DNA of 64,000 bases, taken from the NCBI GenBank assembly GCA_027946365.1, contig JAPEUQ010000005.1, forward strand, positions 1,674,001 to 1,738,000. Direction: 5' to 3'. The translations under genes and the position numbers were made by a program. Positions 1-702 of the stretch are shown piece after piece (position 1 is the stretch's first letter; each line of letters begins with the position of its first letter). Under the pieces are notes generated by a model. That model did no database searches and was not told the origin of the DNA. It saw only the letters and a program-made list of their open reading frames with translations. Source of the stretch: Kalmusia sp. IMI 367209 (lineage: Eukaryota; Ascomycota; Dothideomycetes; Pleosporales; Didymosphaeriaceae).

Positions 1-702
1 TTTAGTACGGCTGATCAGATGCAGTGTTGAGTCTGCACCGAGGACTAGACTGAAAATTTCTTCCCGAAGCTCTAGGGGAAGCTTCCACAACAGACAGTGC
101 GGCTGCTTGTCCGATATGTGGCGCTGCAAGGCCGCAATGGGCTCGCTCTCAATGTGTGTCTGCTGCTGAGTGATATCCGGGTTTGAAGTGGCGGACAAAC
201 GACGGCCGTGTGTATGAGACGGAGGAGCTGGCTGGCTTTTCTTCTCGACAGCAACGCGCTCCTTCTCGGAATCGAGGCTCTTCTCGCGCTGCCTTAGCAG
301 CCAAGCTTGTCTACCACAGAGCCTCATGTCGAAAGAATCCTGCGTGGACTCCGAGTCTGATGGAACAAAAGGTACTGAAGGTGGTTCTAGAGATCGCGAG
401 AACCGAAGCCGCGTATCGGCCAAAGCTTCAGGTTGACTGGCGTCCTCTTCTTTCAGCTCCCTCCTATTTCGAAGCGGTGTCAGTACTGTTCTTGCCATGC
501 GAACAGTCTGTTTTCCTGTAGTGATTGTACACGGCTCTGGGGACTGCGAAAGCTCGATTCGCGATTTAGCTAATAGGACAGGTTGACTAGCTTCCTCCAC
601 TTCCAAATTTAGATGATTCCGGTATGCAGTGCCAAATAACAGTTGTTGGCGTGGGGCTCGTCCGCGGGTGGTTCTTCGTGCTGTCTGTTTCGTCCTCGCC
701 AT
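1..702 (-). CDS. Partial gene: histone H3-tail-like N-terminus fused to an F-box-like fungal protein (C-terminus beyond window)
   Basis: An open frame runs from the ATG at 702-700 to the window edge without a stop (234 codons seen). The context ccaATGg suits a fungal start and no other in-frame ATG lies upstream before a stop. The protein begins [20 protein letters not shown], identical to histone H3 at 15 of its first 20 residues after the Met: the first eight match exactly, K4 is kept, K9 and K14 are Arg, K18 is Gln, S10 is Thr. It then leaves H3 entirely. A second, diverged copy starts at residue 69 ([10 protein letters not shown]), and both copies are followed by an E-[ED]-A-S-Q-P block (near residues 37 and 87). 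Near residue 211 comes [15 protein letters not shown], typical of the start of fungal F-box-like/DUF7730-type regions. It is not a histone, having no histone fold. What it does is unknown; mimicry of the H3 tail towards chromatin readers or enzymes is inference. Confidence 0.72.
   Translation of the reverse strand, partial: [234 protein letters not shown]

Follow-up and report, generated by a model that had tools for sequence, protein, structure and literature searches.

A DUF7730 protein with a predicted H3-tail-like N-terminus in a Pleosporales-type fungus

At the edge of the window (the whole stretch of 64,000 nucleotides analyzed here, contig C26:1674001-1738000 of a 42.8-Mb genome in 30 contigs), a minus-strand reading frame predicts a protein in which 15 of the 20 residues following the first methionine are identical, in one ungapped alignment, to those of the histone H3 of the same genome, including an exact ARTKQTAR. 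Lysine 4 of the tail is retained, and lysines 9, 14, and 18 are replaced by Arg, Arg, and Gln, respectively. The resemblance to H3 stops after residue 20, and a Pfam search of the full-length protein up to E 10 (within HMMER's filters) gave no match to the histone-fold model PF00125. In all these respects, the initial annotation, which had described an H3-like start with K4 as the only retained lysine in front of a non-histone remainder, was borne out. The best explanation, which we hold with moderate confidence, is that a nuclear protein of the DUF7730 family carries an acquired and selected N-terminal H3 mimic that would offer a K4-type ligand.

The reading frame and its likeness to histone H3

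The frame is truncated by the window edge, with 234 codons inside the window and 821 bases more beyond base 1 (Table 1). The full gene, whose retrieval from the contig had been proposed at the outset, is a single ORF of 507 codons from Met1, free of stops throughout. The encoded protein comprises, in this order, the H3-like tail, a linker with a tandem duplication, the DUF7730 domain, and a basic, K/R-rich C-terminus. The two copies of the duplication, R1 and R2, align with a protein score of 73, compared with 51 for the best of 1000 shuffles, and their reading frame is conserved (pN/pS 0.49; 187 of 100,000 simulations were as conserved).

Table 1. Positions of the features discussed, in window coordinates unless a contig or locus is named.
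Feature	Position	Strand	Remark
507-codon frame	1..702, rest left of base 1; C26:1673179-1674702 = L009:4179-5702	-	neighbouring bases read
H3-tail-like segment, residues 2-21	640..699	-	15/20 identical to the genome's own H3
R1, residues 25-60 (copy 1 of the internal tandem duplication)	523..630	-	
Repeat R2, residues 75-110, second copy of the duplication	373..480	-	resembles called N-termini of P0003 and the decayed paralogue
Met69 codon, start of database protein P0001	496..498	-	this start would omit the H3-like tail
Out-of-frame ATG at -31 from Met1	731..733	-	opens an overlapping 48-codon frame (733..587)
Out-of-frame ATG at -86 from Met1	786..788	-	opens a 9-codon frame
First part of the DUF7730 domain, which spans residues 199-432 (mostly beyond the window)	1..108	-	PF24864, 106.5 bits
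HET-domain gene; second HET-domain gene, split across two neighboring frames; NACHT/NPHP3_N-DUF7791 gene	6581-7996, 10784-13042, 21113-23563		
GATA-factor gene	26140-27993		beyond the HET/NACHT stretch
H3-like gene copies	L005:1303-1900; L074		part of the 34 copies in the genome

The reference in all comparisons is the spliced tail of the genome's own canonical H3 gene (C12:2358260), which has an intron inside codon 8. Shuffling residues 2-69 of the protein 200,000 times gave at most nine of 20 identities to H3. Similarly, the best 20-residue H3-like stretch in the six frames of 30 other loci, that is, 29 of the 43 other DUF7730 matches, some of them overlapping, and the wider locus of a decayed paralogue, has eight. 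A codon pattern for MARTKQTA[R/S] occurs at two places in the genome, the H3 gene and the frame described here. The looser pattern MARTKQ adds a single place, C1:358262, where a frame that is transporter-like by eye starts MARTKQATPVKRTPSE. The product is likely a membrane protein, and its ARTKQ start is probably due to chance. Since such a frame also has one, a five-residue ARTKQ start is unremarkable by itself; the agreement at 15 of 20 residues is remarkable. A second candidate H3-like motif, KQTVR ahead of Met69, was rejected, as 27.5% of 2000 shuffles contained one as good.

Constraint, origin, and likely translation of the tail

Chance as the source of the H3 likeness is excluded, because eight base differences between H3 and this gene in codons 1-9 alter no residue, and in 100,000 simulations of random mutation, no run preserved as many residues. 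Over 21 codons, 39 of 63 bases agree, with a pS of 1.04 and a pN of 0.14. As the synonymous differences are thus saturated, the likeness is maintained at the level of the protein, and the peptide is therefore either descended from H3 and long kept by protein-level selection, or converged on H3 under selection. Both cases imply that it is translated. Descent would require a copy of a spliced transcript or an intronless ancestor, because the likeness spans the site of the H3 intron. The leader contains a 7-base match (TCTCCAG); the whole alignment scores 37, 300 shuffles reached up to 36, and the hint at descent from H3 is suggestive only.

Convergence would mean that an Arg-rich N-terminus drifted or was selected toward ARTKQTAR without descent from H3, mimicry of H3 still being its function. 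We consider this improbable, since 15 of 20 residues in one ungapped block, with APR and QL matching behind the changed sites, are a long way to converge. The base agreement of only 39 of 63 does speak for it, as does the codon-8 intron, which a direct genomic copy of H3 would have brought along. The N-terminus of the decayed paralogue is also basic (MSRKRRK), and the transporter-like gene has come to start with MARTKQATPV; the match in the leader weighs weakly on the side of descent.

A different H3-derived source is abundant in the genome. An H3-like gene is present in 34 near-complete copies with 74-100% identity, several of them containing stops, and the five loci that were compared have approximately 5.5 kb in common, including a hAT dimerisation domain. 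The available part of a report on Pyrenophora tritici-repentis describes hAT elements that carry an H3-like gene, H3L, by transduplication (PMC3538342). As far as that part goes, this Pleosporales genome holds a gene that derives from H3 but is not one of the canonical set, and a similar element is present in the genome analyzed here. H3L, however, has a histone fold and lies within a transposon, whereas the protein described here has no histone-fold match and a different tail. The possibility that the tail is a by-product of this element, for which the copy number and the shared hAT segment could be cited, is very remote and was rejected: the copy at L005 has a divergent H3 tail, MARSKQVATKKPRHKLATGGK, which is much farther from the tail described here than canonical H3 is, and the MARTKQTA[R/S] pattern is found at none of the H3-like copies (the tail itself was read in L005).

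Translation from Met1 is, in our judgement, likely. The constraint on the tail and the open frame favor it, and a simple scan for splice consensus sequences found no intron able to remove the tail. The database protein for this gene, P0001 (439 aa), starts at Met69. The two out-of-frame ATGs ahead of Met1 also stand against the longer product, and the one at -31 has G at its position -3, where Met1 has C. Codon usage gives a mixed signal: over codons 1-68 the frame ranks first of the three, but weakly (-0.034 vs. -0.081 and -0.141), and over codons 1-24 it scores worst (-0.129 vs. 0.000 and 0.045). If Met69 were the true start, near whose equivalent position the paralogue and the database protein P0003 begin as well, the upstream H3-like stretch would be a relic of an adjoining H3 copy that is untranslated or occasionally translated. 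We regard this as unlikely. A silent relic would not retain ARTKQTAR amid saturated synonymous sites, R1, which also lies upstream of Met69, has likewise kept its frame, and the frame is open through Met1.

The DUF7730 family and searches beyond this genome

The protein matches PF24864 (DUF7730) with 106.5 bits, the cut-off being 27, and has a 2EXR match below the cut-off of that model. Among six family members analyzed with Pfam, DUF7730 was found in all and 2EXR in four. The part behind the tail had been called F-box-like, which has to be corrected: it is DUF7730, and no F-box model matches any of the six members up to E 10 in a search in which HMMER's filters drop many weak matches. In total, the genome contains 44 stretches matching DUF7730. 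A decayed DUF7730 paralogue (L018) is located on the same contig at C26:2014552-2015649; it is 44% identical to the protein described here and has nine stops in the match.

Two whole-protein database searches, each limited in its scoring to the 8000 candidates with the most shared words, yielded six non-self relatives, P0002-P0007, including one from Paraconiothyrium brasiliense (P0007). They align across the DUF7730 core as far as each extends, and in each of the six the C-terminus is basic, contains K(R/K)KA, and is NLS-like by eye. Five of them are called from downstream of R2 only, so that the tail region is not covered, and the H3 tail is not present in P0003, the sole relative that reaches this region. 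Both repeat copies resemble the N-termini of P0003 and of the decayed paralogue, the latter being closer to R2 than to R1 (88 vs. 57) and the former equally close to both (70 and 72). Since P0003 and the paralogue both lack the tail as well as a second repeat copy, this lineage has probably added the tail and one repeat, subject to the reservation that database N-termini are choices of gene callers; P0001, called from Met69, illustrates how such a tail can escape notice.

The MARTKQTA[R/S] codon pattern was also searched in 84,980 prokaryote genomes, giving ten matches. Six are identical to H3 across all 20 residues and presumably represent contaminating eukaryotic DNA. One match (L056) agrees at 15 of 20 residues and then diverges, in a frame of 38 residues, as expected of an H3 exon. 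The other three agree with H3 at nine, ten, and nine of 20 residues in frames of 19-28 residues, one with the Ser for Arg that the pattern permits, and are due to chance. In IMG/VR, the H3-tail pattern has no match, and a search for relatives gave 46 pattern matches, none of which was confirmed.

Residues 1-70 were compared with 5.8 billion proteins, with candidates restricted to proteins about 0.55-1.75 times as long as the 507 residues of the query. This search returned 24 candidates, none at E <=10, with matches to the tail alone beyond the reach of the method, and suggests that no candidate combines the tail with the repeat. Since true H3 itself, used as a control, scores only E 26, the empty result is no evidence against other H3-tail fusions. 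Among solved structures, profile A1 has no match up to E 1. Literature searches, for which most subscription journals and bioRxiv lay outside coverage, returned no papers on DUF7730 and, among the matches listed, nothing that describes such a fusion of an H3 tail.

Comparison with known H3 mimics, proposed role, and genomic setting

Mimics of H3 are already known, also in fungi; new here are the longer likeness, the retention of K4 alone, and a carrier family of no known function. N-terminal H3 mimics are known from animals, namely the SNAG proteins and PAF15, and their likeness to H3 is much shorter or looser. The SNAG peptide sits at the N-terminus of its protein, has a sequence different from that of H3 itself, and precedes zinc fingers. 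According to the available part of one source, the SNAG domains of Snail1 and GFI1 mimic the H3 tail and recruit LSD1 (PMC12612597). The protein described here shares with these repressors an N-terminal H3-mimicking peptide, here recognized by sequence only, but it has 15 of 20 H3 residues with K4 kept and DUF7730 behind the tail, and C2H2 zinc fingers have no match in it up to E 10 (Pfam, within HMMER's filters).

In PAF15, an H3-like VRTK at the extreme N-terminus of a non-histone protein is bound by the PHD finger of UHRF1, and two lysines are ubiquitinated, as stated in the part of the source available (PMC8034647). The corresponding motif here is ARTK, and its position directly after Met fits a free N-terminus of the kind that PHD fingers could read. 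The likeness cited for PAF15 comprises four residues, while the present tail keeps one of its four tail lysines. A fungal precedent is Swi6/HP1 of fission yeast, a non-histone protein with an auto-inhibitory H3 mimic sequence (PMC7192584); Swi6 is an HP1 protein and not a DUF7730 protein, and the portion of that source available does not present its mimic as a copy of the H3 tail at the N-terminus. Other DUF7730 proteins share the domain with the one described here, but no H3-like stretch lies near the 29 of 43 examined (best 8/20).

We suggest that, in a fungus of the Pleosporales type, a probably nuclear DUF7730 protein gained about 20 codons from the start of H3 at its N-terminus, and that selection retained the acquired peptide. 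An initiator Met before Ala should be removed by methionine aminopeptidase, and with Ala next to Met1 the processed protein would present a free N-terminus identical to that of H3. The exposed residues would include R2, T3, K4, and R8, and marks at positions 9, 14, and 18 would be impossible for want of the lysines. Such a tail could occupy proteins that grip the extreme N-terminus of H3, over residues 1-4 up to residues 1-20, that is, an LSD1-type demethylase, PHD fingers, or the Set1/COMPASS writer, and might thereby either recruit a complex to the partners of the DUF7730 protein or compete with nucleosomes. The tail may thus serve as a decoy, a hook, or a substrate.

LSD1 requires a long H3 peptide. 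Because the likeness extends over all 20 residues and Arg replaces two of the three lost lysines, a long grip like that of LSD1 is favored over the short grip of a PHD finger. Considering this requirement of LSD1 and, by analogy, the recruitment of LSD1 by SNAG through H3 mimicry, we favor a putative LSD1-type hook or pseudo-substrate as the first choice, and reading by a PHD finger, as in PAF15, as the second. The genome contains an LSD1-type gene (SWIRM and amine-oxidase domains) at C27:309844 and a Set1-type gene (N-SET) at C23:974822, which means that two possible partners for such a tail are present.

More tentatively, this K4-only mimic in a nuclear fungal protein may engage the writer, eraser, and readers of K4 and escape K9 methylation and tail acetylation. 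It might itself be methylated at K4, which would let chromatin enzymes regulate a DUF7730 protein in a region rich in HET and NLR genes. If so, nature would have supplied a separation-of-function probe for the H3K4 system, with H3 copied over 20 residues and three of four lysines removed, and the uncharacterised DUF7730 family would have its first functional lead.

The gene has neighbors of fast-evolving kinds, which supports the initial annotation in its placing of the gene in an accessory genome region. Two HET-domain genes and one NACHT/NPHP3-type gene form an incompatibility- and NLR-rich stretch adjoining the gene, within 25 kb. On the opposite side lie an MgsA-type AAA ATPase gene (L010) and a frame that is aminotransferase-like by eye (L009/L010). 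Finally, the RIP composite index around the gene is negative (-0.28 in its 2-kb bin) and is positive in one bin, reaching 0.30 at window positions 5101-7100.
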